Shown here piece after piece: positions 1,143-47,700 of a stretch of 64,000 nt of DNA. The notes beneath the pieces were generated by a model, which was not told where the DNA came from, searched no databases, and worked only from the letters and a program-made list of their open reading frames with translations. Source of the DNA: Tachypleus tridentatus (Eukaryota > Arthropoda > Merostomata > Xiphosura > Limulidae); assembly GCF_004210375.1 (NCBI RefSeq), contig NC_134833.1, positions 142,468,127 to 142,532,126 on the forward strand, given 5' to 3'. Numbering within the stretch: position 1 is the stretch's first letter; every line of letters starts with the position of its first letter. A program made the translations under genes and the position numbers.

Positions 1143-2960
1143 CAGTGGTTCTCAACCTGTTTCACCCCATGCACCCTTTTCACCATTTATCAGAATGTCA
1201 CTCCCCCTTTCCAAGATTGTCTGACTCAATAGGTGTATTCCAAATAATGTGCCTATGATATTGAAAATCTTTTATTTTTTTCCATATTTGTGCATATATA
1301 TATATATATTTACTTGGATTATTTTTATAATTTAGAGTTACAAATTTAATAGCAATAGAAAATGTTGATGGATTTAAAACTTGAATACAAGTAGTTTTTT
1401 TTTATATTCGTAACTTATAATTTAACAGACTAAAGTTACTGAAACATACTTTAGTAAACAAAAGGTTCAGTAGAATACCAGGGTATTGTAATTCATTTTA
1501 TTCTGATGAAGATCACAGTCAATGAGAAACCTGTGATTGTTTTTTCTTCACCAATTCTTGGATGCGTGGAGGAGTACTTGAAAGGACACAACGCAAGTTA
1601 TTTTCAATCTCTAATCTACTTCGTTGCTTTGTTTTTATTTGAAATAGAGTTGAAAAGCCTGAGTCAGAAAGATACGTCGACACAAACGGAAGCAATGCAT
1701 GGATAGCTCTTTCTGCCACTTTTGGATAGGAGTCGCACTCAAAGGCCAACGTATCTCTTGCTCCAGAATCAGTCTTCAGCTCCAGAAATTCATCTTGACA
1801 ATCATCAGGAACTTTTTCAACTGACAATTTAAATGGATTTCGCACTAAATCCAACTCCTCATCACTGAGGTCAGGAAAATATTGGCTGAATTCATTTTCC
1901 AGTGCTGTAAAATGCTGCAAAATTTCCATTTTTGCAAACTCTGGAAGCACTTGCTCTTTACTACCAGTAACAAGAATTGATGACAGTTTCTTCAAACATT
2001 GCAACATTTTTTATCTTGATCTTTCTCTTTCAATTTCCCAGCTTGCTCATGAAAGCTTTCAAGGAATCCATGGATTTTATGATGTTTGTATTCCTTCCTT
2101 GTATCTGAAGGTTCAGTTTATTCAGCTGCTCAAAAATGTCAAACAAACAGGCAATGTGCATGATCCATTCCTCATCATCCAGCCAAGCAAAAAATTCCAT
2201 CTTACCCTGAATTAAACAATAATAATTTGAGCTCATCTCTAAGTTCAAATACTCGTTCAATTGCATTTCCTCTTGAAAGTCATCGAAAATTTGTGTGGAA
2301 AAGAAACAAATGATGGCATGCATCCATGTCAGCACATAACTGCTTGAAAAGTCGTGAGTTGAGAGCTCCTTGTTTGATAAAATTCACAATTTGAACTGTT
2401 TGATCCAAAACATTTTCCAATAGAGCTGGAAGTGTTTTTGAGGCCAGTGCCTGATGAGGGATCATACAATGAATGCTTCTTACTTTTGGAGTTCGCATTT
2501 TCACACAAACTTGAAATCCAGATTTTGTCCCTAACATAGCTGGTGCTCCATCTGTACAACACCCACAGACATTATCTAACAAAAGATTTCCTGATTCAGA
2601 GAAAGATGAAACCTTTTTCAAAATATCTGAGGTCTTGATAGTTGTTTCAAGAGTAAAACAAAAAAGAAACTCCTCTTTAAATGAATCTGAGTGAATATAC
2701 CTTGCAAATACCAGCAACTGAGAACACGATGCCACATCAGTTGATTCACCAAGTCGAATTGAAAATAAGCCAAATGCTGCAGACTTGATCTCCTGCACAA
2801 CTCTATCCGTGATGTCAATGGCCATGTCGCTGATCCTCCTTTGAACAGTACTGTTTGATAGTAAAACTGCTGCAAGTTTTCCTACAATCTATTTCCCAAA
2901 ACATTTTGTCCATTGCCCGTTATTTTCCATGTTTTAGTTGTTTAAAAGTAAAAGAAAGGA
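1143..2960 (-). mobile_element. hAT-type DNA transposon, truncated
   Basis: One end is recognisable: CAGTGGTTCTCAACC at 1143-1157 is the typical terminal inverted repeat of Charlie-like hAT elements. A decayed transposase on the - strand follows (separate entry). The opposite TIR is not found before the SINE that starts near 2989, so the element appears truncated at its transposase 5' side. The boundary at 2960 is approximate. Confidence 0.75.
1519..2936 (-). pseudogene. hAT transposase relic (ZBED5/FAM200-like)
   Basis: Three consecutive reading-frame blocks on the - strand (about 2936-2335, 2335-2030, 2007-1519) together follow the order of a ZBED5/FAM200-like hAT transposase. The first holds the RNase-H-like catalytic part: a LSNSTVQRRISDM segment, GESTDVASCSQL, and CTDGAPAMLGTKSGF. 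The middle block matches the helical insertion region (FDIFEQLNKLNLQIQGRNTNI). The last is the C-terminal hAT dimerisation domain, with FVSTYLSDSGFSTL, IKTKQRSRL and a terminal PRIQELVKKKQSQVSH. Frame changes between blocks, an in-frame stop near 2888, and the missing zinc-finger N-terminus show it is dead. The family assignment is from recalled conserved motifs. No host function is suggested. Confidence 0.85.
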
Positions 2961-7579: not shown

Positions 7580-10500
7580 CAATATTGCAGCATAATTTTC
7601 AGTACTCTTCCTCTCTTTCTTTATTACTCTAACAGACAGTGGGGTCACCGAAAGGACGAAATTACATTTGAATTATGAAATTCTTTACATTTCCTTCCTT
7701 CATCAATTATGACTTACTTGTTATTATTCATATATATGTGGATGTGCACAAGCATAGTTAATTTTATTCTGAATTATTGTCCTTACTGAAAATATATAAA
7801 CATTATAGTTGATTGTGCTACTGAAAGTATCTTTAGACACGAAAATACAATTTCTTGTTCAAAAATGTGCTCAAGTTCGACCACTTCACGTAAGATGGCG
7901 TTTTTCAAAAAAATAATATTTAGTAAATGAGGTTGTTTTTATTCTTCAGATCCTTAAAGAACGTTGCAGTAAACACGTATTAAACATCTAAATATATTTT
8001 TAAAAAATGTGATAATCTGAACATAACAACATACAGTTTTCATTCACATTTCACGAAATTAGTTATATTTCTGTGTAATATATACTTCGAAAGTTATAGT
8101 AGTCTATAGTCAGGTTAAATAATAGTAACTTTGTTCAAATTTTATATAACACAAGTAAAAAGTACTTAAACTAAATCGTTTCGTTTTGAGTTTACTTACC
8201 TATTAAGTATATTCTATTACAGTTTATATCTTTTACAGTGAATGAGATTTGTTTTTCGAAGCTGTATTAATAAAATCAAACAATTCCAGAGTTAATAAAT
8301 ATCCGAGTACAACTGTATATATATCTGATTTTTCTCCCCCTCCATATTCCTAAACTTATGCAAATATTCCATAGTTTTTATATCTATTCATCATTGGCTT
8401 GTTTTATTCAATCACAGATAAATACATAATATTAATACGAAGTGAAATGCACACACACGAGTAATACACTGTCAATACATTGTTGATGTAAGTACTAAAA
8501 CGGTAAACCTGCGGATTTGAGACCGATTAGTTGGCTGGTTGTCTTAGAGTTAAACCATAATTGGCAATTTACTGTATCCACTGTGAGGAGTCGAACCGCG
8601 GATTTAAGCGTTGTAAGGCCTCAAACTTACCGCTGTTTCATCAGGAGACTCCACGAACAGACCCTTCGTACCTGCTCTAAATACAAATCTTTCTTACTTT
8701 AACAGCTATAAATCATAAGTTTAAATTAAATGTCTTATAAACGGCGAGAATTTTTTCTTTGATGCGAATCTAATCAGCCAAGGCTATTTCGTAACTGGTT
8801 CACAAAAATTTCAATGGGTTACACAAAGTTCATTTAACATGTTTAAATCAAGGTCTGTATTCTTGTGCTACGTTTGGCAAGCCTATTCAGAAATTAATGC
8901 CCATTGGTATAGTTACGTGTCATTTTGTTAGGACTAAAGATTTAAAAAAAGAAAAGAAAGACTTTATTTTAGGGTAATTTGAAGTACTGTTCTAATATGT
9001 TACATAATATACTTCCTGGGATAACTCTAGTACGAAATAATTTCATTATGTGCTAGCTTCTTAAAATAAACTACATTTCTTGACTTAAACAAATAAACAT
9101 TTTAATGCATTTAAATAAATACACCCAGAAGAGCAACACAGAATGTATGAACCCTCCTGTGCTGTGAGGATAGTTACTAGCTCCCTAGTACACTCCTCCC
9201 CTTAAAAAACAAAACATCTCATTCAACATAAATGCCTTTTTTTACGTAGTTGATGCAAGTTTGCAAAAACGTTTTCTTCCGAGAAATGAATCTTACATTT
9301 TTTATATCTTAGGCGCTCTGATAAACTATAGTTACTCAGTTATAGAACTGTTTTTGAGTTCTGACTCTACATACCGTTTTAAATAAACCACCACAACTGT
9401 TTAACACACGTAACCGAAGATATATGTTCAACAGTTACAAGCCATAGTTTCATTAAACTGTAGAAACTCAGAAACTGATCAATCATTCTAATAATTTAGA
9501 CATCTAATGTTTTATTTCTTAAGTACTTCAGGTTATTTTAAATGCTGTCCACTATAAAGCAGCATTCTACCCTTGTTATTCACGTAACTATTATTATTAT
9601 ATATTTTTAAACTGACTGGTTCTCAAAATTGATTTTCTGTCTTTCTCATTGCGACTCAGTTACCCAGCATTTCAATTCGGAATAAACATTCGCATTATGT
9701 TTTTACATAAACATAGAAAACTATATTAAAAAATATTTTACACAACATAATTCAGTCAGAAAACCATTTATCAAAGTTTATTCTAAAAATATAGTTTTTC
9801 AATTCAAAACCATCTGCCCAAGGAATATCACACAAAATTAGGTTCAAAACTCCTCAGTGGAAACATTTCTTGGTAACAATTTAAACCCCTCACCTTCACC
9901 CAGTGGCATATCTATGGACTTACCACACTTGAAACCACATTTCATTACCGGTGGTGGGCAAAACATAGTCCATTATGTAGCTTTGTGCTTAACTACAAAC
10001 ACATAATTTAAAAGATTTAAACAGATGTCATAGTTAAACTTTACATGTTTTGTTTTGTAATAACCACGTATAGTTTTGCCCGGTGGTGGGCAAAACATAG
10101 CCCATTATGTAGCTTTGTGCTTAACTACAAACACATAATTTAAGGGATTTAAAGAGATGTCACAGTTAAACTTTACATGTTTTGTTTTGTAATGACCACG
10201 TATAGTTGCTAGATGTTACCTAGATTTCTACATGAATGAGTAAAGCTGTTTTGAATTCAAAAACCCTGGTGAAAAACCTAATACTCTCTCCAGTTTAATC
10301 TGGAATCACTTTAATATAACTTGTACAAGTTTTTACTCTGCTTATTTGTATCTTACAGATTTTTCTTTGTATTTTTAGGAGACAGAATATCTGGAAACCA
10401 AGCGTTTGGCTTTACAAAATGAGCTTCAAATACTCAAGTCCCAGAAGGAGGAGCTTGACTTTCTATTGACAGCCCACAAAGCCACATGCAAGCTGCTCAC

Positions 10501-10831
10501 CACACACAGAGCTGCTGAGAATCAGAAAGGGTTAGACAGTCTAGAATTAAGGAATGGGTCTAACCCTTCATATGGAGATGGAATCTCTATCAGATCAGAG
10601 CCAGTTTCTAGGCCAACATCTCTTCCAGTATCATCCACATATCTGTGCTCTTCAGGTTTTTCAACCATGGGGATGTTGAATATGGATTCTCTAATGGAAG
10701 GGGGAACTGGACTGACACCAGTATCTTCTGGAGCTACAGCCATGATTTCATGTTCAGGACAACAGAGGAACTCCGGTAGTGAATTGTCCAGTCCAGACAG
10801 TGTGAATCCTCCTAAACTGGTGTCTCTGTGA
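5927..10831 (+). CDS. kay: Fos/Kayak-type bZIP factor, last two coding exons
   Basis: Join 5927-6034 and 10379-10831 (36 + 150 codons, phase 0, TGA stop 10829-10831). The first exon follows a CTTTACACCAG acceptor and ends AAG|GTGAAA; it encodes [15 protein letters not shown] and AAARCRKRR, the AP-1 basic region. The second follows TATTTTTAG and continues the zipper. Five leucines sit seven residues apart (NNL, EYL, LAL, QIL, EEL), then a histidine in the Fos position (DFLLTAH). About 100 residues rich in Ser, Gly and Pro follow, ending [10 protein letters not shown], reminiscent of the Fos C-terminus. ATF3/JDP2 stop soon after the zipper, so Fos/Kayak fits best. The intron after the first zipper leucine matches my recollection of vertebrate FOS. 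The protein should be a nuclear AP-1 subunit dimerising with Jun on TGA(C/G)TCA sites. The N-terminal exons are not identified in the window. The intron is 4.3 kb and repeat-filled. Confidence 0.88.
6629..6886 (-). mobile_element. SINE family A, left arm of an inverted pair
   Basis: Reverse copy inside the Fos intron, from AAATTTTGCGCAAAGCC to the tRNA-head complement ending CCACCTGGCC. It shares uncommon variants with the + copy at 6968-7238 (see findings). Confidence 0.88.
6968..7238 (+). mobile_element. SINE family A, right arm of an inverted pair
   Basis: Full-length-looking copy: GGCCCGGCATGGCCAGGTTC head, CACACCAAACATGCTCGCCC body and TAGCTTTGCGCGAAATTA end with an ACAAACAA tail. About 80 bp from the inverted copy at 6629-6886. 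Confidence 0.9.
7547..7579. repeat. (CA)n(TA)n microsatellite
   Basis: Compound dinucleotide run, CA repeats passing into TA repeats, in the Fos intron. Confidence 0.9.
8570..8660 (-). mobile_element. tRNA-like SINE, family C, degraded
   Basis: Contains GAGTCGAACCGCGGATTTAAGCG, TTGTAAGGCC and CTTACCGCTGT, matching the family C head seen better at 45985, 52672 and 59328. The open frame across 8517-8702 is a repeat artefact. Confidence 0.55.
9948..10211. repeat. 132-bp tandem duplication built on a SINE B fragment
   Basis: CCGGTGGTGGGCAAAACATA starts at 9948 and again at 10080. Both units continue with TTATGTAGCTTTGTGCTTAAC (SINE B 3' end), then a shared unique stretch ending CCACGTATAGTT. 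The units differ at a handful of positions, so the duplication is fairly young. It ends about 170 bp before the last Fos exon. Confidence 0.85.
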
Positions 10832-11924: not shown

Positions 11925-12989
11925 ATATTATTTGACTTCCAGAAATTTAGAACTACTAACTCAATTTTTGGGAGTTGCCCAAATTATTTTCCACAGAATA
12001 AAAAAACATTTTTTATTATCACATTTATTACAAAGTTTCGAAGTCTATTTCAGTACCTACAAACTCAAAATTGTAAAGTTTATTATCTAAACAAGAATCA
12101 GATGATCAAATATTGCTCATACTGCAGTCGTTTCTTTTGAAAATAAACAACAATATGATAAAAAAAAATAGTGCTTTTATATCCATAAAAACTGTCCCAA
12201 TAAATGCAATAAAAATGAAATATATAAAACAGAGAAAACGTCAAGAGCAGTTTTTCATACCATTCCTTTATTATTATTACTTTAACACTGACATCAACTG
12301 AATAATAAAATTAAACCTTTCTTACAGACAAGAGTAAAAACGTTGACAAATCTGTACCTTTGTGTAAAATAAGATCTGGTAGATTACTATACTCCTATAA
12401 CTCCCATAGTAACTTGGATATAGAAGTATGTATAATAAGCTATAAAGAACCCTTGTTTACAGAATATGCAATGTAAGAACAGTCATATTATATACTTCAT
12501 TTCTATTACAAATGTAAGGTTATCCAATAAAATGTGGTATGTAAAACAAACAAGAACATAACAGTGAAACTGAATACAGTTCTATGGATTGATGTGAAGC
12601 AAACCTTGTTAGAGCAAAAATTTCTATTTCATTTGTAATACTTAAGAATACATAAGATCAGATAGTTTAAATTGCAGCTCATGAAACCCAAATGTTCTAA
12701 GGAAGTTCAACCTTCTCGAAGTGTTTGCTCACTTTCTTGAATTCTGATACAAATCTTGAACAAATTTGTGTCTACTTCTGATGTGAGGAAAAATAACCAA
12801 CATATACAAGCAAATGAAATCTGTCATATTTTGGTTTTTAAACACATTGTGAAATAAAATATTACAACTGAGAACAAATGTCTTAAAAGTTCAAATACAA
12901 TTTTCATAAATATGAAAGTCTTGAGTACACAGAAAGAATCCAAGTGCAATTCAGAAAACAGTTATTTCAAATGTTCAGTTATTTTTTTT

Positions 12990-15900
12990 TCATTCACAAA
13001 CCAGCTCAAAGTTTTCAGCATCCATCAAATCTTGGTTGACTTGTGATGCCCAATTCTCATATTCATCCTAACAATAAAGAAATCCTCAAAATAGTAATTC
13101 AAACTTTCATAATAAAGTTACCTTATACCACAGTATTCATATTTAGTTTTAATTAAAAATCTCTTAAAATCATTCCAAACTAATTATCAAAAGTACTAAA
13201 TATACTTTTCCAACACTAACATCTACTAGAATACTAGAGTTTTGTGAGTTATACTGTGTAAATATAGTAAGCAGATAAACTCTGATTTGATCTTGGATGA
13301 ATAGAGAAGTAAACTGAAAGGAATTTAATAAACTTAATATAAACCAACTGTTTGTGATGCTACTTAATATAAACCGACTGTTTATAATACTTTGAATGAA
13401 ACATACATTTGTTTTTTTTACATGTGGTATTATACCATGTTTGATATTACAAAGAATCTTAACCTGACATGAAGTTCCAACCAGGTTATCTGAGAAACAG
13501 CTGGTTGAAGAAGCCTGAGCTATAAAATAAAAACATTAAAATTTATACAGACAACAACAGTGGATACAACTGTTTAAGGATGACAATTTAAAAACTAATA
13601 AAACTTGAAAAATATGAACTTGAAGATTAGAAGTCAGAATATTTAGCAGTAAAAGATGCAGACTTGTTTTGAAGGCATTATTCATCTATATCAAATCTGA
13701 CTTTTAAATTAACATCTTACAGAATAATATTTGTTGAAAGCTTGGATTTTATCAAGATTTTGAAAGATATTGATATATATATAGAAACTGGCTTTTGCTA
13801 CACTTGTGCAGTGAAAATATTGTTTGTCTTTTTTATTTTAATTCAGACAAGAAAGCACTGAATTCACTAGAAAATATCTCAAATATCCTTTGATGTTTTT
13901 AATGTTCAACAGATATATTAGGAACAGTCCTAACAATATATCTCTATGTAACTTTGTACAAACTCTTATAAGTTATTAATTTTTGTTTAAAAAATAGGTG
14001 TAAACTTAATATTAATTAAAACAAAATATTCCTATTTTTCCATTTCAATTATAACTGTACAGTAGGAAGTCTTTGAGACATTTTCTAGATATAAAGGTTG
14101 GTTACAGAATACCAAATACAATAACATAAATAAGATACTTTCTTTCTCACTAGTTTTTTTTATTACTAATAAAAAAACAAGCTGTATGACAATTAATATA
14201 TATGTAAAAATGGCTCATTTGGTTTGAGAAAACTTTTTACTTAAAGGAAACGAACGTTTTGACTTTCTTCTGTCATCATCAGGTTCACCGAAGAAGGTTG
14301 AAACGTTGTTCTCTCATCTACGTAAAAAATTTTCTCAACCCAAACAAGCCATTTTACATATATATTTTTCTCTACAAGTGGGTTTTCTCGACATCACTGA
14401 TATTTATGACAATTAACATCTTTCTTACCTGAAAATGTATTTCTGATAGACACCTTTCTGTACACAGAAGCTTTCTTTGCATTTTTACCTTTTCAAGCAT
14501 GTCTTGAGATATTTCTCACCTAAGACACAATATATGTGAACTACACTATTGAATGATGTAATAATCATGGAACAATAGCTCTTCACTAGCAGCAGGATGA
14601 TGTCTTTTACGCACAGTTGATACCCATAGATGTTTACACTAAAACTTAACTTAATTCTCAGATGAATCAAGAATAATCTAGTTGCGAGAACCCCACAAAT
14701 ATGTGATAGAGGGGCCAGTGCAATTGCAAAATACCCATGAGTTCTCTTGAAGAGGAAAGCCTACAGAGTGTGACACCACATAGTGAGGGCTTACTAGAGG
14801 GGTAACATCTGCAAGATACTACATCCATCTCATGCAGGGTATGCTATTTGTATGGATGAATCTTTTACTGAAGAAAGTGCAATGAGTTACCAAGAAACAA
14901 GAAACCAAATCAGAAAATTTGGCATGCCAGGGAAGTGGGCAGACACTTCCACTGGTTTTTTAATGCTAGTTCATGAAAGGTACAGTCTGGAATCGACAAT
15001 GAAATACATGTATACACACATACACTACAGTAGCGGTCTTATGGAAAACTCCATCTCAAGTGGGCATTTTAGGGTCCAGAGTGGACAAGTTTAAAACCTT
15101 CTGTTACTAGTAGTTCAATGTACATTTAGAGAAATAAATATGCTCTGTGAGGCAACACCAGCCACTGAGTGGGTTCTGAAAAGTGAATTGGAGTACATTA
15201 TAATCAGGTAAGAAAATAAAAGAGGCATTCACCCATTAAAGACAGTAAACAGATTTGAGAATGATGATATCCTGATGGAGATGAAATTGCCAAATAGTGG
15301 AGATAAAGGTTTTGGTGAAGTACACATTCCAGACTAGAAAATTTCATCCAAAGGTCACTGAAACTGTATGGCCAGAAACTCAGTTAAATGGCAGAGCTGA
15401 TGTGATGGAGTGTGATATAGCCTCTGAGTATCTCCATTGTAGAAGGAATAGACAATCTGGATAAGCAGACAAATTAATCTAAAAAGTGTAGATTGTATGT
15501 GATGAGTAATACCCAACAACGTAAACTGGGCACAAAATACAAGCATGGTCAGTTTGATCATAAAGGGAAGAGAACAACAGAAGAGATACAAATGAAAAAG
15601 TATAATCTCTAGAGCTGCTCAAGTCTTAAGAAGAAACAAGTAGCCAAAGAATAAGATCAAGGAAGGCATCAAATTCATAAATATCAGATCTGCAATGACC
15701 AAGAGCAAGAAAGAGAATGAAATATGTTTCTTGAAAAAAAATGGTATAAGAAGCTAGTGGCCAAGGATCCAGATGAGGACTAGAAGAGAATGTGCAGAAT
15801 CACAGTCTGCTTTTAGCCAGGCAAAAGAAGTGGGAGACACTGAATTAAGAAATTCTGAAGTCAAGTGAATAGAATAGGAGAGGAAAATGCAGAATCATGG

Positions 15901-18900
15901 TGATAAGGGTGAAAAGTAGTTGAAAAGACCACCTAATGGCCCATGATGATGGAAACCAATAATCCTTGGTAAAACAACCAGGTCATCTAACTGTTGTTCA
16001 CCTTTTGAGATGTTTTAACTGGTTGCAGCAGGTGGACTAGCAACATAAAATGCCACTTTGTTTACAGACAGAGCAGAAGAGAAGAAAAAAAAAAAAACAG
16101 AATGGCTACATTGTCAGAGAAACCTGACTGGACAGATCCCAAAAATGAAGACAAAGGTACAACACACCCAGGTGAAAGAGACATATGAGGTTGTAGAAAG
16201 AGTAAGATAGAGGCAGAGGTGCTCTGGATACTAGCAATGAATAAGAGAAAAATTAGACAGATCCAGCCAAAAAGATGGTACAAATGTGACTCAAAGTGGA
16301 GTGTTGCAAATCAACACCAAGACACATGGCAGAAGACAAAGAGAGTAGTACACTAGAGAGAAAAAGATGTGGCCAATCCTAATTTTGGTCATCCACAGGA
16401 ACTAAAAGAAGAGGAGTTTGGTATTGAGAGAAATAGGAAAGGCATCAATCAACTAGGAAAAAATTTCAAAAAATACCTGATGACAGAATGACAACTTAGG
16501 AGAATCTTGTTTAGATGAAATAACCAATCTGCCACTAATTTCTAAGATTCTGAGATATGACAAGCTGTCAAACAAACTTTAAAGGAATAGGTCTAAAACA
16601 AAATAATCCAATGTGTGACAGCAAAGATCCCTAGAGCACATCCCACCCTGATGACTGATGTGGGAAACAGCTGTAGAGTTGTCAATGCACTATAACCAAA
16701 AATCAGCTAAAAGTTTCAGAACACTAACATGGAATATACACCCTATAGGAGATTGAATCTCTGAAGATGTGGTGTCATCAAGAAACTCACCTCAATTCAT
16801 GAGATATAAGGCAGCAAAAAGATAAAAATCTGAATGAGAGCAAAAGTAGGATGCCAACCACAGTGTTGACATGATGTAGCTACCACAATAGTTCCTTGAA
16901 AAGAAAGGATGGTAGCATTACAAGAAAGGACAGAAAATCACAAAATATTTTCCTATTATTGCACTATAACCAAAAATCAGCTAAAAGTTTCAGAACACTA
17001 ACATGGAATATACACCCTATAGGAGATTGAATCTCTGAAGATGTGGTGTCATCAAGAAACTCACCTCAATTCATGAGATATAAGGCAGCAAAAAGATAAA
17101 AATCTGAATGAGTGATGCCAACCACAGCTACCACAATAGTTCCTTGAAAAGAAAGGATGGTAGCATTACAAGAAAGGACAGAAAATCACAAAATATTTTC
17201 CTTTAATTGCTCAAAGTACATTGAAGAAGCCCCATGTAAGCCCAGCCTACAGAAACAAGATGTTCCCAGAGATGCAACAGTTGCCAAAAGAAACAGAACC
17301 TGTTGCACAGAAAATACAGGAGAAACAAGAGTTTAGGTAACTAGATCCTCCTTTTTCCACACATAAATGGGTGAAGGATAAATCTAAGTTTAGAATTGAA
17401 AAAGACTTCAATGTGGACCAAATATTAAGTCAGAGTCTCTTGGAAAAAAGATGTCCACAAGAAATAGGCTTTCTGAAATAATAATCCAGACATCCATGTA
17501 ATAATGGAAATGAAGTCCAAGCCTGCAGACATGGCAAGCAGATACCCTCACAATTAAAGTGAAAATACAAGGAGTCAAAGCAACACGCTTAAAACTTGTA
17601 TACATGGTCCCAGCAAACAAAACAAATGATGTAAGGAAAGGGCAACTGGAATATGGAAAAAAGCATCCAAGATGTCATCTTTAGTCATCAAGAGTATTAT
17701 GTTACATATTATAACTTTCATCAGATGAGTCTATTATATTACATATTTTATGTATTACTATTTTAAAGAATCTGAAATATGAATTAGAATTTAAAAGTTA
17801 ATTAACTGTTACTGTGTATCAAATTTATGGTATTTGCCAACAAGATTGATACACACAGTTTCCTTTTAAAACACATGTATTTTAATATACAAATTATGAC
17901 AACAGTTATTAGTAATAATTATTGCAAATGATGGTTTATATAGACAAATCTTATAAACAATACTGAGTCATATATCCAATCTAGATCTAAATAGTTTATC
18001 AATGATCCAGGACTACAATGAGCAAATTAATTCTAAGTTGATATTTTCACACATCTCGCATGAACTCGCTAGCTTGACTGGCTTCACACCACTGACTTTT
18101 ACTGGCAATGATATTTAATGTCCTTACAGGAATTTTAATATTCAAAGTAGCTCATTAAAGTTGAACAGTTTCTAATGTTCAAAATCCATAAATGTTCCTG
18201 GTCCAATTCTGTAGTTTTCTGATAACTCACAATTATGACTTCCCAAGCCTACAAAACAGAGTGTAACTGCAAACAACAACCTTATTTGTCCCTCAGTACA
18301 TCAGTTTCTATGTACCAATCATGCAAATCAATAGTATTACATACACACCTACTGCATTGTTGATTCTTACACTCAAAAATCTTCTACAAATTTTGAGAAC
18401 ACCCGGGACTTACACAATACATAATCAACAATATACATTACATGCAAAAAAGATAAGTATTATGAAACAAGCATATGTATTAAAATAACCATATAATGGC
18501 AAATCTGTTACAATAGTCTATGGTAAAGGACCAATGTTGAAGAAACCCATCTATTTTGAACCAAGAAATCAACAAATAATGAGAGAAGAAAAGTTAATGA
18601 CAATGTCAGTCCCTGCTTTGTTTTGGGATAACAAAAAGCAAGAATATAACTTTGGAGAGAAGCAAATGACCCTCTTGATGGCTCTTGTCACAAGGAAAAA
18701 AAAAGAGAAAAGAGGTCACAGGAGAAAGATTAGATTTGAAGAGAAAAGCTGTGTATTATGAGCTATAAAAGGGTCCAAAGGTCTGCAATAAAAAGAATAG
18801 ATGGGTCCCCACAGGCCCTGAGCTGATTCAGTTGAAAGGATTCACAGATGGGATTTGCAATGGCCAACCCAATGGGAGAGGAATGGTGAGAAGTGGAAGA

Positions 18901-21459
18901 AGGACAAAAAGAAATGTGAAAAAAGTGAAAGGTTCATGAGGTTGACAATAGAAGTGGACTCAAGAGTTTGTGAGAGACAAGAAACCAGTCAGGAGCATCC
19001 TTAAAGACTTCAGTGTGAAGAAAAGGAACAAGATGGAGATCATAGAGAAAAGAATGGGTAAGATGAAGGGCAGAGATAGAAGAACATCATATTCCAAAAA
19101 GTCCCAGTAACAGTAAGCAGAGACAAGACAGAAAACAAATCTCTGGCTAAGGTATTGAAAAAGATGTAGAATGTAGGGCTTCAGACAGGAGTTAAAAAAA
19201 AAGAAAAAGATAGGTAATAAAGGAAGTGGGTCAAAAAAAAGGTGGAAAAGGAAAAACATAATTACTAGATAGTGTTACTGAAGTTAAGAAGTAAGATTTG
19301 ATCACACTTTATCCTTATAGTTTGGTTCATAATGAGAACACAAAATGCAAGGAACTATCGTGGTAACATCTTAAACAAAGAGCCTTCAATGGTCATAAAG
19401 TAAACAACACTGCTAGAACCTTGGGAGGAGTTAATAGTCATCACAAGTTGAGAATTAATGGTTGTTGTACCAATTCACCAGATCAAAATTTTTTTCTTAA
19501 AGTTATTTATTGGTGATGTAGCTTTAAACTAATGTTAAAACACTAAAAGGAAAGCAAAGAAATTTAATATTGTAAATCTCATAAAACTGATTAAGTCTGA
19601 CCTCAAAGAAACATGTCTGTTAAAGACAATGCAAAGAGTAAATATGAAATTACTCTTGGATACACGTTTTTATGGGGAACTACTGTACTTGGAGGATGTG
19701 TCATCTTCCTACTGATGGAGGGCTATTGTCGCAAGATGTTTACCTCATGCATTAGTGCAGTTCTTAGGTTGAAAAAGCTCAAAGCTAGCAGTACACTCAA
19801 AATTGTAGATCTGCACAAAAAATAGCTACTACATGAAAAGAGGCAAGTTTATCATTTTAGAAGGTATATGTATTTAATCTTTAGTGATCCAGGTAAATAT
19901 CCTATAAAACTGGCAGTAACTGATGGTCTTTGTTCAAGCTCCAGTCAGGAAAACAGCCTGCTTTTTGTTAAAAAAACAATTCAAACTATTAAATTGATAA
20001 CCTTATATATGACATATTATAAACCTTTTGACATTGCTTAAGTGTGCTGTAATTGAAGAAAATAGATTTGTGTGTTGACAAATTAGTTCAGATCAACTCT
20101 GATACTGGAGATCAGTCTGCATGGAAAAGTTTCTTAAAATCAGTGAAAGGAATATCTGAAGACTCAAGTCAGAGCTTATTTACTTTTCAATTATTTTTAC
20201 ATAAATTTTTTGATTATCTGAAATTATCTGGGTTTAGTTTATATTAGATAACTGCAGTGATGAAGCATACAAGTTAAAATGAATATTACAGATATTCAGG
20301 CAAAATATCAAGAGGCAGTTTAAAACATAAATATTCCACTGATTACATTAAATACCACATTAAATGGCAGAATTCTCTAGTTATAAATTTTTATTACAAA
20401 ATAATTTCTACTAAGTTCATGGAATTAGTTTATTACAACATGATTAACATTGAGCTCACTCAAGCACAGATAATGAAACTGTGATATAACTGATAAATAA
20501 AGAACAGTTTGACTTACATTCTGGGTTTTTTGGTTCTTTCTCTTTCCTGAAGACTTTTTTTGGTTGTCTTTGTTTTCCTCATGATAATGAGTTTCAGAGT
20601 CTAGAACCAAACATTTCTTAATGGCTTTAAGAGAAGAGCGACTATAGCTTTTTCTTGGCTTCTTTGATTCCCCAAATTGTATAACAGGAGATGAAGTATT
20701 TATCTGTTCAGTATTACAATTGGAAGGAGACTTTATGTCTGTGTAGTTTTGAGATGCCACAGGAGACAAATCTGGAGGTGTTTCAAACAGAGAGACAAGT
20801 CCATAATCCTCAACTGTGGACAATGAATTACACTCCTTGTCTTCAGTGCTAAGTAAAAAAGGTTCTTCACTGCTGCCTAATGGCCTGACTGGTGAAGAGG
20901 TAACATTTTTAGGATAATTTGGTGTAGAGGTGTAACACTGGATGGTTGTACAAAGCCTTTCAGAATGATTGTATGAAGTACTCAATGCTGTGATTTCATC
21001 ACATCTAACACCTGCAAGTGTCTTGCAGTTGGTTCTAAGCTTTGTCTTATTAGGTTTGAGACCAGAGTTTTGGTTTGTGCTGTTAAGAGGTGAAAGTAAA
21101 ATACCACTATCAAATGAAGAAGAAATTTTGCTTTCTTTTGAATTACATGTGATTCTAAGCCTTTTTTTCTCCCACTTACATTCATTTTCTTTGTTTCCCA
21201 AAGACAACTCTAAATCACTCTCATTATTACAAGATGTTGAACACAGCGCACTGGATCCGACTTGGTGGAAATTAGATAATAAACCGTCACTTCTAGAATT
21301 ATTCACAGTATTTTCTTTTGGCCTTTTCTGTTTAGTTTTCTTCCTCAAAGCCCTACTTTTGGGAGTTTTGAAAATCATAGAAGAATTTTTCACTGTTGTT
21401 ATTAAGTTATCAGTCCTTCTCAGTGACCTTCTGCACATATTTCTGGTTACTGCAACCAT
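12990..21459 (-). CDS. CDCA5: sororin (CDCA5) homologue
   Basis: Exons (- strand) 21459-20518 (314 codons), 13514-13464 (17) and 13067-12990 (25 plus TGA), all phase 0; donors AAT|GTAAGT and CAG|GTTAAG, acceptors CTCAG and TTGTTAG. The last exon gives DEYENWASQVNQDLMDAENF then ELVCE, aligning with the vertebrate sororin C-terminus (W-A, N, A-E-x-F-x-L, final E). Other matches: KEN boxes at residues 48-50 and 90-92, a PRKSYSRSS segment (YSR 272-274), YGLVSLF (219-225), and a basic run near 300-313 before the terminal helix. Sororin binds PDS5-cohesin, blocks WAPL and keeps sister chromatids together until mitosis; APC/C-Cdh1 removes it through a KEN box. The frame stays open 5' of Met to an acceptor-like TTGTTATAG near 21495, so an upstream exon may exist. 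The first intron is 7 kb and repeat-laden. The gene is tail-to-tail with Fos. Confidence 0.8.
14197..14364 (-). mobile_element. Penelope-like foldback with hammerhead-like core
   Basis: Imperfect inverted repeat. The left arm (TATATATGTAAAAATGGCTC, then a TTTGAGAAAA stretch) matches the complement of the right arm (TTTTCTCAACCCAAACAAGCC, then ATTTTACATATATA). Between the arms, read on the - strand, are AACGTT, an ACC...GGT hairpin, CTGATGA, TGAC-AGAAGAAA-GTCA and AAAACGTT. That is the layout of the hammerhead motifs described for Penelope-like retroelements. It sits in the long sororin intron. Confidence 0.6.
14690..16686. other. sororin intron, purine-rich sequence, nothing identified
   Basis: Purine-rich on the + strand. 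An open frame at 14852-15094 (+, 80 aa) has no motif I recognise and no intact flanks. It could be an old decayed element, but no diagnostic domain is visible. Confidence 0.4.
16687..17215. repeat. tandem duplication of about 270 bp
   Basis: The block beginning GCACTATAACCAAAAATCAG occurs at about 16687 and again at 16961. Both copies run through CACCCTATAGGAGATTGAATC to CAAAATATTTTCCT. The second copy lacks about 25 bp (two small gaps around its TGATGCCAACCACAG segment). Otherwise the copies are nearly identical, implying a recent event. Confidence 0.9.
17216..19600. other. sororin intron, nothing identified
   Basis: AT- and purine-rich sequence. A run of A/G-rich segments at about 18580-19240 produces open frames on both strands (for example 18534-18761) that look like composition artefacts. 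No SINE of the four families was noticed. Confidence 0.4.
19613..19825 (+). CDS. unidentified small ORF with one possible membrane segment
   Basis: ATG-initiated frame of 70 codons antisense to the sororin intron, starting MSVKDNAKSKYEITLGY. A hydrophobic segment (TFLWGTTVLGGCVIFLLM, residues about 18-35) is followed by a Lys/Arg-rich tail, which would give a single-span membrane protein with a basic cytoplasmic end. I do not recognise it. The context before the ATG (AAAGAAAC) is acceptable. It may be a chance frame, a small nested gene or one exon of one. Confidence 0.2.
   Translation: MSVKDNAKSKYEITLGYTFLWGTTVLGGCVIFLLMEGYCRKMFTSCISAVLRLKKLKASSTLKIVDLHKK
20053..20247 (+). other. unidentified coding-like ORF, no ATG
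   Basis: Open frame of about 64 codons in the sororin intron, beginning at TTG rather than ATG. Its composition looks protein-like (QINSDTGDQSAWKSFLKSVK, then an SLFTFQLFLHKFFDYL stretch). It could be an exon of a nested + strand gene together with 19613-19825, but no convincing pair of splice sites joins them. No function is proposed. Confidence 0.15.
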
Positions 21460-21499
21460 TTTGTAAATGTCAACTTCCAAAAACTCCTATAACAAAATG

Positions 21500-22850
21500 A
21501 GTTTCCTTGCATTTAAAACATCTAGAAAAAGAAAGACACTTCAGAATGATAGTGCTGCACTTACATAGATAAACTATGGCTGTTGAAATCATTACATACT
21601 TATAATTAAGAAAAAAGATGTTTTAAAATATATGAAAAAAAGAGCACATTGGCACAAGCACAGAATCACATCAATTATATTTTTGTATATTCATAAAAAG
21701 ATTTGTTCTAAGTTATAAATACTATATCTGATATTTATGAAACAAAATAAATATTTTAGATTGAAGAATATTCAGTGTACTAAAAACAAAAAAAACATTT
21801 TCCAGTATTACATTTAGGTCTACCAAATTCCAGTAACAATAAATAAAAGATAGTATAATATCTTGCAAACAGTGAAACAGCATAATTAATGAAAACACAA
21901 AATGTTTAAAAAAATATTCATCTGTATCAGTTGAAAACTTTTAAACATTTTCATTTGTAAACAATGACATAAGGTTCTGATTGAGTAGCCTCTTCCAAAG
22001 AACACCACCACAAAACCTTGTATCAATAGTTCGTTTGTCCAGAGAACACAAAATATATAGAAAAATTCAAAAATCACATGAAAGGCTTTAATAATTTTGG
22101 AGCAATGAGTAAATGTATGATTGCTGAAAGTTGGTAACTGCATATAATTACAGAAATGAGAAGTTGAGAAAGATCAAAGAAATTGAACTTGTTGGTTGGA
22201 CTGTTTTTTGACAAGGTGTTATAAATTATTGAGAGTAAGTTTTAAAAGATATATCTTGAAACTTCTTTTGTTAACAATCAATGATGATTTCACAAAGTCT
22301 TTCCTGACTAATTTGCTGTAGTTTTTTTTTTAAAACAAGATCATGGTTATTTTGAATGTGGCACTTTTTTGGATGTCTCAAAAGGTTTGCAAAGTCTCCT
22401 GAAGAGTTAAATTATCAAGTTCATTCCTCCATTGAATTACCTTAATTCTGATGATATGCAACCGCTGTAAAAACTGATTACACAGAATAGGGTTACTTAA
22501 TGTAGTGCTATTAGCACTATGTATTTCAATATGAAATGTATCCCTTATTATAAGGCAAAAACATTGAAAAGATTTGTTGTTTAAAAAAAGAATTTAGCTG
22601 CAATTTCATAATATAAAAATAATGGACAATAAGTGGTCACTTGGTGTTTAGAGGCTGTTCTTACAAACCACCCCTGGAGAAAAAGTACGATATTACCTAT
22701 CCTTTTATATTTCAGGAAACAACCAATTTTTATTTTAAAGTCTTGAGAAATGCTGGCCACTGCTACAGCTAGTACCTCATCCTACAAGTCATCACCCTGT
22801 TAGAAGAATAAGACACTCTTCACTGAAGTGTAATCTGTATTTACCAAACT
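21500..22850. other. upstream of sororin, nothing identified
   Basis: AT-rich sequence that should hold the sororin 5' UTR and promoter (transcribed leftwards). I could not place a first exon or TATA box with confidence. Open frames here lack coding character. Confidence 0.4.
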
Positions 22851-22854
22851 GTAA

Positions 22855-23172
22855 ACTTTGAATCTGTTTTCTCTGATAGAGGACGATGTTTTGAAAGTCT
22901 TCCACCTTTCGAAATGTTGTCCGCTACACTTGTGTCTCCATAACACAGTTACCATCCAATCTACAGAGTTCCATGAAGTAGAACCATGTTACTTCTCTAG
23001 GTCATTCAACAAGATCACCTCTCACCCTTATTTATTTTTTCATAACACACACACACAAAAGAACTTAACGTATCCCCCTGAGATAAGACTTCCATTCCTG
23101 GTATCATCTTAGCAGCCCTACTTTGAACCCATTCTAATATCAATATCTTCTCTTAGTTAAAAAAACAAACTG
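22855..23172 (-). mobile_element. CR1/L2-like LINE fragment (RT C-terminus)
   Basis: On the - strand near 23150-23090 the frame reads LEWVQSRAAKMIPGMEVLSQ, matching the conserved end of CR1/L2/Rex1 polymerases (LE.VQRRATKMIPG). It continues with a decayed RRGDLVE segment. No other part of such an element is visible, so this is a 5'-truncated 3' piece. It abuts the Nimb-type LINE, so the border is uncertain. Confidence 0.6.
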
Positions 23173-23248: not shown

Positions 23249-26200
23249 TTAGTGCATCAGTCCCTGACAAAAAAAAAAATGAGTTAAAAAATTGTGATCA
23301 ACGTGTGGTCCAGTTAGAACTTTCTCTTTCCGATCCTTACAGAAGTAAGACAGCCAATATACAATATAGGGTTTTATTTGGAAAAGCATGTTTTCATGTT
23401 GCTCACTCCAAGTCGACTGCCAGCTGCCATGGAGCCGAGCCTTAAATACAGGACCATAGTCCATGTATGGGAGAGGCACAGCGATGATAGTGCCTGAGGC
23501 AGATAACTGCAGTGTCGGCGAGCTCGTTCCCACAAATACCAAAGTAGCCTGGTATCCAGAAAAACTGGATAGAAGTAGATGTTAAAGAGAAATGGGCTAG
23601 TCAGTTTTGAATATTGGCAAGAACAGGGTGTGAACCAACATGAAGCAATTCCAGGGCCAGTATAGAACTAAGCGAGTCAGTATAAATTGTACAGTTTCAG
23701 TCCTGCTTAGCTTCTATGTGATCCAGGGTAAGAGAAATGGCATACAGTTCAGCAGTGAACACAGAAGCTGTAGAGGGGATTCTGTGCACAACCGCTGAAC
23801 TACAACAAACCATGACAGAGCCCACACAGTCGCCTGATTTCGAACCATCTGTATCAATAGGAATGGAAGGATGGTTCAAAAGATGTTCAGCAAATAGCAG
23901 ACAGTATTTCCAATCAGGAGTGTCTATGTTTCTCAGATGACTTACAGATAGGTCACAACTGGAGACTGTAAGAAGCCATGGTGGGATGGGCTGGCCAATG
24001 GATACACCAATGTTATCCAAGGACAGACCCAATTCACCCAACTGCACCTAAATACGAAGACCAAAAGGAGCAATGGCAGACTGTCTGTTCTGAAAAAGTA
24101 TGGCCCACCAAGGAAGAAAAATACAATCCCAGATGGGATGCTTTGGTAAGGAACTAAGTTTTGATTCATATAGTAAAGACAGTTGCAAATGGCAGAGGTA
24201 TCAAGAAGGTTCATGAGACTTTATAATGAATAGGGTCCAGCATCTTTAAGGCTGATGGTCTGGCAGAGCCATAGACCTGTGAACCATAGTCGAGTTTTTA
24301 TCGAATAAGAGCACAATTTATCTTCAGGATAGAACGTCAATCTGCTCCCCAAGTGGTGGAAGAGAGGACACTGTGGATGTTTGGTGCTCTTGTACATTTG
24401 ACCCATAACTGCTTGATGTGTGGTACAAAGGTCAGCTTATGGTCAAGTCTCAGGGACTACAGGCAGCACAACTTCATCGATACAGAGTTCAGGATCAGTG
24501 TGAATACCCTGTTAGTGGCAAAAATGCATGCAAATGGTTTTAGGGAGAGAGAAGATAAAACTGTTTGCTGTGGTCCACTTCAGTAAATGATTGAGGGCAG
24601 TCTGTAGCTGCCACTCCATATACCTCATGTTTGAGGACTGACATGAGATGTGAAAGTCATCGACATAGAGCCTGTTTGCAACAGTAAGAGGGAGTTGTTC
24701 AGTGATGGCATTAATCTTTATACTGAAAAGTATGACACTCAAAACACAGCCCTGAGGGACTCCAAGTTCCTATAAAAAAGAACAGGAAAGTGTCAAACCC
24801 ACACGAACTTGAAATCTCCTGTCCATTAAAACATTTTTAATAAAAATGGGCAAATGACCATATAACCCATATATATGGAGGTCTCGCAAAATGCCATACC
24901 TGCATGTTGTATCACAAGCCTTCTTAGACGTTTCAGGTTGAATCAGGTGCTCCATGATAGAGAACTGTCATCAGAACCCACACTGGATGGGCGAGAGGAG
25001 GTTGTTTGATCTGAGAAACTAAATAAGACGAGCATTAACAATCCTTTCTAAGGTCTTACAGAGACAGCTTGTCAAAGCAACTGGATGGTAGTTTGAAGGA
25101 ATCTTGGGATCCTACTGAGGCTTAGAGAAAGGTATGACAATAACATGGCACCAGGCATCAGAAAAAACATTTACCTGCCCAATCCAGTTAAAAACAATCA
25201 GAAGAATAGCAAGAGAAGCAGGACATAGATGGTGCAGCATTTCATAGCGTACATCAACAGGTCCAACTGATCTACTGCCAGAGCAACGAAGGGCCAGTTT
25301 GAGTTCCACCAGTGTAAAGGGACGATTATAGTTATAGAGACAATCAGCTTGAAAGGATAGAAGTGATCACCCTGCCCAAGTCTTGGTGGTTAAGAAAGTG
25401 GAGGAAGAAGCAGAAGAGCTAGATACCTGGCAAAAGCTTTCACCTAGAGTATTGGTGATACTCCAGGTATCAGCTATTTCCTGGCCATCAGATAGCAAGA
25501 TTGAGAGGGGACAGAGTGATATTGCCCACTGACCTTTTGAATCTTGTCTCATATGACTTTGGAACTGGTGGTAGAAGATATGCTGGTCATGAACTTAATC
25601 CAAGATTCTTTCTGGCTTTGACGTCTTGCCCACTGAGCATGTGCACGGGCCTGCTGGAAAGCAATGCAGTTCAAGAGTGTGGGATATCTACGGAAAGTAT
25701 CCCAGGCCCGTTTTTGAGCCTTCTGTGCCATGTGGCAGGCAGGATTCCATCATGGACAAGGATATAATGGAAAACATTTAGAAGTTTCAGGAATACATTG
25801 AGCAACTGCTTGTATAATACAGTCAGTTGCTGCTGCCACACAGTCATCTATTGATGGCAGGATCAAGTTCTGTGAGAGCAGTGAAAGAGGGTCAGTTTGC
25901 CTGATCCAGCTTCCACTGGGGCATGCAGATTGGGTGGGATTGACCACAGCCAGTCTCTTTCAAAATTATAGGAAAATGATCACAGCCTTGTGGATTATTG
26001 TCAACCCTCCATGAAAAATGGGAGAATAATGAAGGGTAGCAAATTGAGAGTTCAATAGCAGTAAAGGATTGACTAGGCATACGGAAATAAGTAGAAAAAC
26101 CACTACTAAAAAGAGAAAGGTTGTGATCAGAGAGCGTATGCTCTACAAATCAACCCCTCCTATCAATGTCAGCACTTCCCCAGAGGGGATGATGTCCATT

Positions 26201-26596
26201 AAAGTTCCCCAGGATGAAAAAGGGAGACAGCAACTGTTCAATGAGAACATCAAGGTCTGATTGATCATATGTCTCTCCAGGCAACAGGTAAAGAGAACAA
26301 ACAGTGATGAAATGACCCAAGGAGAGACAGATGATTATGGCCCCCAAGGGTGTGTTGAGCAGCAAAGACAGGGTGGGCACATGCTGATCAACCAACAGTG
26401 CCATTCCTTGCACTTGTCCATCGCACAGCCTGTCATTTCTGTACAAAGAAAACTGCCAAAATGTGACTGTATTGCCAGGTTTCAGAAATGTTTCCTGTAA
26501 GGAAAGACATACAGGATGGTAGGAAGCAATCAGTGTTTTGATATCACCCAGATTATAACATAAAATTTGACAGTTCCTCTGTATCAGGGAACCCAT
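23249..26596 (-). pseudogene. LINE ORF2 (endonuclease, RT, RNase H), decayed
   Basis: Endonuclease at 26596-26150. RT fragments at 25309-25112 (SVGPVDVRYEMLHHL, DAWCHVIVIPFSKPQ), 24955-24770 (KACDTTCRYGILRDL) and 24742-24512 (YVDD box). RNase H at 24047-23697. The C-terminus runs to about 23249. Each piece lies in its own frame, with stops between. Reading order and motifs match a single former ORF. Confidence 0.8.
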
Positions 26597-27034
26597 TTTT
26601 ATTTACATGTAGATGAATTGGGTGGAGAACCCTTCTGTGTAGGACCATGTCTTTTTTCCTTACTGTCCTTATTTAAGGGAGGTCTATCGACCTCCATGGA
26701 TCCTGCCCTGGATTGATTGGGCAGATCTTTGACTGAGGACGTGAACAAATGATTGTTTTGCATCTTGAGGTGGGAAAAGAGGATGTATCCAAGGAGATGC
26801 TTGTACCTGGAACAAAAGGATGTTGAATTTGGGGTTTGTTGGAATGTAGTAAGGGACAAAGATGGGTGTTGAAGTTGATTCATCAACTTTTGTAACCATG
26901 GAGGTCAAAATACTTTTCATTTGTTTAGAGAATGATTCTTTTGGAGGCACAGAGAGATCAGTCTGCATTCACATTGTAGTTGTGGAATGAAGTGCAGCAG
27001 CACATGTCCAAGATAAAGTGGTGAACAGCAACTT

Positions 27035-44700: not shown

Positions 44701-47700
44701 TTACTTTTCTGAATTAAATGTTTTGTTGTGTAAACTTACCTGCTACGTAATCACCAAAACCGATGGTGGCGAGCGAAATGAAACAATAATAGAGTCCTTC
44801 CAAGAACGTCCACTGTTCGATGACCATGAAGATACCTGCTGGAAGAATGATGAACACGACAAACCATGGAAGAAGAAAAGTCAATGCATTGATCGCTAGC
44901 GCCACCTTGGAGCTGTAGCTCTTTTTGGCTCTTTCGAGACTGCTGAGCAACTGTTTGCTAAAATGGTCACCGATTGCCGCTAGGAGTATCCCCGTCATAG
45001 GTATTCCTATCATAGCGTAGAAGACACAGAATATTCTTCCTGGAACGGTAGATGGCGCTAAATGGCCATAGCCTACAACAGAGGCGTTTCTTCAGTTTCT
45101 CGTTTAGGCCTAAATATATTCGTGCAGTTTAATCTTCAGTTTTTGTCTAATTACTTTTATTTTTTATTATATAAGTATTAAGCTTTCTGAAAATTATTAT
45201 TATTGTTATGCTTCTTTTTTTAATATTTGAAATATATTTTTAAGGACGTCGAAAATACGATTTAAACCAAGGATTAAGATTTAACAAAAATTTAAAGTTT
45301 TTTTATTTTATTAAGTACAAAGTTTTACAGCTAGCTATCTATTCTCTGCCCATCGCTGTTATTGATGCTCCAGTTTAACGTTATACGCGCTCAAACACGC
45401 TTCTGAGTCATCGGGGAAGAGAGGGTATTTAGTAAAAACAAACTTTTAAGCCTAAAGCAATATCAATACATTTTATCGAACTGAATGTTCGGAAGATGAA
45501 CTGACCATCTATTATTACACGCACATACGTATATCGTTCACTGGTAAGTCAACAATAAATTTAAAAATCATTAAATACTAAAATTTTGGGTTCGATTCCC
45601 TGTTTGGATAAAGCACAGATAGCTCACTAAGTAGTTTTTCACTAAAAACAAACAAACAAAACAATTATTCATAACAAATAGTTATTTACAACTTAAATTC
45701 AAATCGATACTAGCGAGCATGGAATTGTTCCTACAAATAAAAATCGAAACGAACTCCTGAGGTGCACACTGCGACATTAATAAGCACCAAACGAGTAACG
45801 GTTATTCGATAAACTAAAATTAAGCTTCACCTAATGACATGCTTATCTATTTCTTTCACGGTATCAAACTCAACAAACCAAAATAATAAAGAACTAAGTT
45901 ACTGTGGAAAACAAACAATAATTGATACCGTAAACAATGCATGGACGCGACAATATTTTCTGATAATAGAAATATAGAAGTGTGAGTGTGTGTGTGTGTT
46001 TTTATAGCAAAGTCACATCGGGCTATCTGCTGAGTCCACCGAGGGAAATCGAACCCCTGATTTTATGGAAGTAACACAGAGAGAGGCTTTTTTATATTTT
46101 TTTTATTGCTATTATTTAATGAGTAGTCTTGTCATGTAAGTAAGGAGTTCGACATTGTAAAAGTTTACTCTAAACAACCTGTCTGAATTGATTGTTTGCT
46201 AGTTAAGCTTCGAGAAGGATTAATGAATGTAGGCTTAGCTACAAATAGAAACTTTACTCACTTCCCTTTTTATGTGTTTTCAGGTCTTCGGTTTGCTTTT
46301 GTTTATCCAACTGAAATATCTTTGCCCAGGAGAAGTTTTGATATACATTTGAAAAGAGTTTCTCTCAAATTCAGATCGCAGTTTGTGTTTATTTATATTC
46401 TTGAACACCGACAAGGCCTCGCTAGCACCGAAATATTCCTACCATAAAAAAAATCAAAAACCGATAAGACTATTTTATGGGTGCTTTGAGGTTGTACATC
46501 ACGCGTTAAGGCCGTTTTATTGTTTGTAAGTCCTACAGTCTCTTCGATGATGCCTGAAATGTCTGTGGTTGCATTAGAAACTATTTATCCTTATTAAGCT
46601 AACACTTTTTTACGTAATTTATTAAAATTATGCGTCTTTTCTATTCTATATAATAAGGATTCTTACTTTGGTTTCCTTCTTCTTTTATGTCTCTAACAGG
46701 AAGGACATTTTGTGTATCTGAATAAAGGCACAGTCATTTTTTTATTGTGATGTCACAAAACTTGTTGTCTACATTTATTAATTAATTCATATTCTAGCTG
46801 GATTATCCGTCCCCTGGATGGAACTTGTATAAATTCCTGATTAATGAAAAGTTATCTTAAGACATTAAAAGTTACTTCCCTTATATGTAGTTGTAGAAAA
46901 AAAAACGCCCATAAAAACTGCAATAAGAAAAATTAAAAACTGAGCATTCATATGTGACCTAATGGATCTAATGAACCTCCATAAGAATTTTGGCGAGTTC
47001 CACCCACATCCTACGAAGTAGTTACATGGACATACAACAGATAGTTATAACTAGTATTATTATAAATATAATAGTATATTATATAATAATGTTGACTGTG
47101 GACTATCTTGATCTCTGCAGATCCCAGACTTCAATATTGTTGACTGTGGACTTACTTGGCCTCTGCAGAACCCATACCTCAATATCGTTTACTATGGGCT
47201 ATCTTGGCCTATGCAGATACCATACCTCAATATTATTGATTGTGGACAATCGTGACCTCTGGAACCTCAGACCTTAATATTGTTGACTGTAGACTCTCTT
47301 GGCCTCTGCATATCCTAGCTCTCAATATTGTTGACTATGGACAAACTTATCGAAAAAAATAGTAAAGGAGAAACTCTCACAACTAAGTACTTCACGATGT
47401 CTGTAATTCAACTCCCACATACTTTTACATACTCTAAAATCGACTTGCGACAACGCTCAGCCGACTTGTGACAACGTTCAGCCGAATTGTGACAACGCTC
47501 AGCCGACTGATAGAAATATTCTCGATCGTTTATTCAATTTAAATCTTAATAAACGAATCGTTATTTACTAGATATTACAAAATACTGTTGCGTAGTCTTT
47601 TTTCTGCACAATGCCTGACACTATGAAATAGGTTTTTCAACTCGTTACGTGTGTTCCAATATAGACTAATGAAAGTAGTACAGACATTCAAACGAGTAAG

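Follow-up and report, generated by a model that had tools for sequence, protein, structure and literature searches.

The 64,000-nucleotide stretch of Tachypleus tridentatus DNA analysed here (the window; assembly GCF_004210375.1, contig NC_134833.1) carries on its minus strand a gene that very probably encodes the horseshoe-crab ortholog of sororin, which holds sister chromosomes together until cell division; the gene is apparently single-copy, and its product would compete with WAPL on PDS5 mainly through its YSR motif. We put the probability of this reading at about 0.92. A first-pass annotation of the window had proposed a sororin in this non-insect arthropod, and our check of the sequence confirmed its exons, splice dinucleotides, reading frame and length of 356 amino acids. 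The ortholog assignment was likewise borne out, with the C-terminal sororin box, the YSR motif and an N-terminal stretch lying collinear with human sororin (Table 1). The predicted protein has four features of sororins: the C-terminal box, a basic stretch, the YSR motif and a KEN box.

We compared the 339-amino-acid form of the crab protein, in which the second exon is omitted, with human sororin (CDCA5) by BLASTP. Three collinear stretches were recovered: the last 24 crab residues against the last 24 human residues (9/24 identical, E 2e-4), crab 265-274 against human 139-148 (8/10 identical, E 0.19) and crab 10-46 against human 27-62 (E 0.12), while two further alignments were at chance level (E 9.2 and E 43). 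Shuffled versions of the crab protein reached the N-terminal score in 17 of 2000 cases and the YSR and C-terminal scores in 0 of 2000 each. The likeness of the terminal codons to vertebrate sororin, noticed in the first-pass annotation, also stood out among open reading frame (ORF) ends. Stop-anchored scoring of the C-terminus against human with BLOSUM62 gave 51, against 9 for the runner-up among the 1653 stop-terminated ORF ends of the window; when 170 kb of the same genome was added to the window, it ranked first of 5814 ORF ends, the next scoring 14 and the remainder averaging -22.9 (standard deviation 9.5).

An animal sororin-box consensus, said to be common to all members, [WFY]xxx(hydrophobic)NxxFxE[A/hydrophobic][ED]x[FY]ELx(hydrophobic)E, has been published (PMC10656103). 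At its 12 specified positions, the crab protein agreed at 9, human sororin at 10 and the best other of the 1653 ORF ends at 7; the crab departures are F to L, E to D and hydrophobic to C.

The 2.17-Gb genome (205 contigs) yielded 19 coagulogen-family matches, each exceeding the family cut-off (best E 1.5e-25), and 14 control genomes yielded none, as fits a horseshoe crab, for which coagulogen is a marker. One sororin locus was detected in it. The only other genome matches listed, L010 (E 3.2) and L011 (E 5.9), were weak and were discarded, the former for internal stops and a tract in which T and H alternate, the latter as repeat-like, with its matching segment occurring twice in opposite directions. 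Since the best match outside the gene is this weak, sororin appears to be single-copy. We also considered whether the gene might be another YSR protein, such as WAPL or Haspin, or a pseudogene. YSR-type motifs do occur in WAPL and Haspin; WAPL was found at two other loci (no search was made for Haspin), both the C-terminal box and the place it occupies are typical of sororin, and the frame is open over 353 codons, which makes this explanation scarcely credible.

Several points weigh against the sororin identification. The exon junctions are a prediction from genomic sequence; the second exon is putative and may be skipped, and its acceptor is ambiguous. The FGF motif is not present in the crab protein, which has YGL only. 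The first-pass annotation had expected a Pfam sororin profile to match the 356-amino-acid translation and had treated a missing match as evidence against itself; neither Sororin_C (PF25220) nor Sororin_middle (PF09666) matched any of four inputs (the 356- and 339-amino-acid forms and two C-terminal pieces) at a limit of E 10, a search in which the HMMER filters discard the bulk of matches weaker than about E 0.1. Human sororin, run as a control, matched both. A whole-genome profile search with Sororin_C found nothing in the crab, with one of 14 control genomes matched below the cut-off, and a human sororin query against the whole genome yielded nothing at E <= 10, with no candidates at the initial screening stage. 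We read the Pfam miss as an effect of a narrow 24-column profile and retain the orthology, because the direct comparison with human sororin is strong. Matches to Pox_Ag35 (E 0.11), DUF7501 (E 0.021) and MOSC_N (E 0.24), all below the Pfam cut-off, were taken as chance, as was a single PDB match (E 3.1).

The gene model joins exons of 942, 51 and 78 nucleotides, in phase 0 throughout, into 356 codons plus a stop. GT directly follows 20518 and 13464, and AG directly precedes 13514 and 13067. No open frame of the window is longer than the one holding exon 1 (353 codons; runner-up 202). The frame stays open upstream of the ATG as far as an AG that ends at 21487, an arrangement compatible with a 5' untranslated exon lying still farther upstream. 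Past the stop, the first AATAAA/ATTAAA comes after about 720 bases, at 12272. The acceptor of the putative exon 2 is the second of tandem AGs 5 nucleotides apart (TATAG/CTCAG/GCT). Only this second AG is in frame; splicing to the other one would put the downstream codons out of frame, and the sororin box would be lost. Direct joining of exon 1 to exon 3 leaves frame and box intact, giving the 339-amino-acid form. Because exon 2 holds no conserved motif, the sororin orthology is independent of it. The linker from the basic stretch to the box (E333) measures 21 residues if exon 2 is included and 4 if it is skipped. A basic stretch ahead of the box is a described family feature (PMC10656103, PMC11148194), and the linker between the two spans 10-20 residues in described sororins (PMC11148194).

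Exons 1 and 3 lie 7.4 kb apart and are joined by prediction across an ambiguous exon 2, so we considered whether they might belong to different transcripts, a YSR protein and an unrelated sororin-like C-terminus. They are on the same strand in compatible phase and in the order of human sororin, each half independently matches human sororin, and neither has a good match elsewhere in the genome. We regard separate transcripts as extremely unlikely.

The two KEN boxes, the YSR and the YGL reported in the first-pass annotation are all present, and YGL does precede YSR (residues 219-221 and 272-274). Taken by themselves, KEN and YGL say little about identity: at least one KEN box arose in 3946 of 20000 shuffles and at least two in 394, a [FY]G[FL] triplet was present in 1048 of 20000, and the score of the human KEN-region alignment was matched by 806 of 2000 shuffles of the crab protein, which is chance level. 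KEN box 2 lies between the N-terminal stretch and YSR, like human KEN 88-90, and is the better degron candidate because its position, 90, is near human 88. A second degron in crab sororin is possible. The protein also has eight S/T-P sites.

We then weighed the proposal of a rearranged PDS5-binding region, in which YGL, placed ahead of YSR, stands in for the vertebrate FGF and still docks in the C-terminal trough of PDS5. YGL is the sole [FYW]G-hydrophobic triplet in the crab protein, spaced residues are common by eye to crab YGLVSLFETPPDLSPVA and human FGFEGLLGAEDLSGVSPVV, and BLASTP pairs human 169-181 with crab 211-223, which contains YGL, but at E 43 only. Against this, the score of the human FGF region (162-186) was reached by 693 of 2000 shuffles and its best match was crab 251-260, away from YGL; a [FY]G[FL] triplet arises in about 5% of shuffles, the motif order is inverted, and both WAPL N-terminal exons described below also lack FGF. 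YGL as a transposed FGF is thus unsupported, and we consider this part of the first-pass annotation unlikely. The absence of FGF was not treated as defining, because PMC11148194 files a plant protein without FGF as a sororin. A review (PMC8198109) describes one FGF as conserved in the sororins of metazoan taxa, and the YSR motif, in sororin as in WAPL, as conserved among vertebrates. On the predicted protein, the crab gene would contradict a metazoan-wide FGF and would extend YSR beyond vertebrates.

The segment LVSLFETPPDLSP could instead be a docking site for B56-PP2A that confers a Dalmatian-like shugoshin activity. Starting at the L of YGL, LVSLFE fits LxxLxE, a B56-PP2A docking pattern, and phosphorylatable TP and SP follow. 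A whole-genome profile search with Shugoshin_C gave no match over the cut-off (best 20.3 bits against 23.3), although short divergent motifs are easily missed by such a family scan, as with Sororin_C. The pattern is loose and also fits the box itself (FELVCE). Dalmatian-type shugoshin features in the crab protein amount to loose LxxIxE-like matches, with no PxVxL motif, and this function is very unlikely.

The same genome was searched for the presumed partners, WAPL and PDS5. The WAPL domain gave six matches, each exceeding the cut-off, at two loci: about 8.84-8.87 Mb of contig C3 and about 109.86 Mb of contig C12. Each locus has a large upstream open frame that starts with MSRLGTKTY and ends with KKIFS; the two copies begin MSRLGTKTYSRK and MSRLGTKTYNQK. 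We take these frames to be the WAPL N-terminal exons on the basis of the likeness of their starts and ends to human WAPL, short weak alignments, their mutual likeness and their upstream position on the same strand. The alignments in the fetched regions were E 0.22 for the C12 start, E 3.8 for the C3 end, and E 17 and 2.3 for the KAVYN exons. If the assignment is right, the part of human WAPL with three FGF motifs presumably corresponds to the span of the crab exon.

FGF was found in neither WAPL N-terminal exon, both copies being checked. The C12 copy has DPFSF close to the place of human DPFGF. Among the other minus-strand frames of at least 25 amino acids, FGF letters occurred in 9 of 905 in the C12 region and 3 of 900 in the C3 region; four of the C12 frames and none of the C3 frames fall in the interval that separates the first exon from those of the WAPL domain. 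These look like chance intron frames. Of the vertebrate docking code, the FGF half is probably missing both from crab sororin and from the two WAPL N-terminal exons. A WAPL without FGF is expected in the crab, because WAPLs outside the vertebrates are stated to lack it (PMC4102442); the WAPL FGF may be a vertebrate gain, not a crab loss.

The two copies differ at the YSR position: the C3 copy has TYSRK and the C12 copy TYNQK, with codons AGTCGA and AACCAA, respectively, after the tyrosine. Their N-terminal exons share 184 of 403 aligned residues, with nonsynonymous divergence (dN) 0.43 and synonymous divergence (dS) 0.84 (NG86). Given these values, which come from one estimate for a rapidly evolving exon, both copies look maintained. 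The 16 PDS5 matches listed all fall within 70 kb of contig C10, and the fragment VFAPEAPYKDP keeps the APEAP loop as in the human query.

The known mechanism is the most probable one here too. The C-terminal box would dock on cohesin, either at the SMC3-SCC1 junction, as in published AlphaFold models, or on SA/STAG. The sororin YSR would fill the APEAP loop of PDS5 and displace the YSR of WAPL, and acetylated cohesin would thereby be kept from release before anaphase. The KEN boxes would direct destruction by the anaphase-promoting complex/cyclosome with Cdh1 (APC/C-Cdh1), and the eight S/T-P sites would serve mitotic removal of sororin. FGF may take no part in the competition between crab sororin and WAPL. 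We infer all binding and regulatory steps, like the splicing, from sequence. A more specific version, in which the WAPL-sororin switch on PDS5 runs through YSR-APEAP alone and one WAPL lost YSR after the duplication, leaving one sororin-sensitive copy (YSR) and one insensitive copy (YNQ), is tentative and somewhat doubtful.

Human CDCA5 and the crab protein agree in the order of their elements: the RRS..KTP stretch, KEN, SKKxRxSYSR, the basic stretch and the C-terminal box. Unlike CDCA5, the crab protein lacks FGF after YSR, has two KEN boxes, is 104 residues longer (with exon 2) and is unmatched by the Pfam sororin models. By description it resembles its arthropod relative Drosophila Dalmatian: for Dalmatian or for insects, a KEN box has been reported, as has a C-terminal sororin domain in common with mammals (PMC11148194). 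By description in the same article, Arabidopsis SORORIN and S. pombe Sor1 share with it a basic stretch and a C-terminal sororin domain; Arabidopsis SORORIN also lacks FGF, whereas S. pombe Sor1 has a putative FGF. No KEN was found in either of these (PMC11148194), whereas KEN is present in the crab protein, together with a YSR of the vertebrate type.

According to PMC11148194, sororin was known only in vertebrates and insects before plant and fission-yeast orthologs were added in 2024. Searches of an open-access library brought up no paper on a horseshoe-crab sororin, and among the papers listed for arthropods none dealt with an arthropod sororin, judging by title or the opening of the abstract. 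The crab gene would thus belong to an already-known kind (vertebrates, insects, plants and fission yeast, by PMC11148194), with one informative difference. If true, a horseshoe-crab sororin with YSR and without FGF suggests that the YSR-PDS5 contact is older than the vertebrate-arthropod split and that FGF is a dispensable part of the docking code. When sororin is overexpressed, it is reported to need the box but neither YSR nor FGF (PMC10656103); this agrees as regards FGF, yet by the same result YSR would be dispensable as well. The crab gene offers a natural FGF-free case for asking which motif competes.

Table 1. Coordinates of the predicted crab sororin gene, its motifs and the candidate WAPL N-terminal exons (window positions unless a contig is named).
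Feature	Position	Strand	Remark
Exon 1, residues 1-314	20518..21459	-	ATG in AAAATGG, GTAAGT donor at end
Putative exon 2, 17 residues ASSTSCFSDNLVGTSCQ	13464..13514	-	tandem acceptors; uncertain
Exon 3, residues 332-356 and stop, sororin box DEYENWASQVNQDLMDAENFELVCE	12990..13067	-	human-sororin alignment, ORF-end ranking
N-terminal RRSLRR...KTPKSRALRK stretch, residues 10-46	21322..21432	-	collinear with human sororin 27-62
KEN box 1, residues 48-50	21310..21318	-	not significant alone
KEN box 2, residues 90-92 (KENE)	21184..21192	-	region alignment to human at chance level
YGL triplet, residues 219-221	20797..20805	-	proposed FGF substitute, unsupported
YSR / PDS5-interaction motif SKKPRKSYSR, residues 265-274 (YSR 272-274)	20638..20667	-	8/10 identical to human
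Basic stretch KKSSGKRKNQK, residues 301-311	20527..20559	-	precedes sororin box
Candidate WAPL N-terminal exon, C12 copy (L029-L036 joined)	G000:C12:109879125-109877761	-	
Candidate WAPL N-terminal exon, C3 copy (L037-L044 joined)	G000:C3:8881345-8879990	-	

Rfam gave nothing over its gathering scores, and Tandem Repeats Finder reported nothing in 12000-23000. Downstream of the sororin gene and on the opposite strand, an open frame at 10379-10831 (+) has no Pfam match at E <= 0.01; it resembles the leucine zipper and C-terminal part of a Fos/kayak protein. Two frames at 1519-2888 (-) are a candidate hAT-type transposase or domesticated relative, one matching Dimer_Tnp_hAT at E 0.0087, below the cut-off, and the other giving a weak unrelated match. 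An endonuclease/exonuclease domain (PF03372) at 26150-26602 (-), just over the cut-off at E 9.9e-6, is probably from an element of the long interspersed nuclear element (LINE) type. The frame at 44714-45091 (-) matches Ion_trans_2 at E 4.6e-21 and probably encodes a potassium channel of the two-pore kind.
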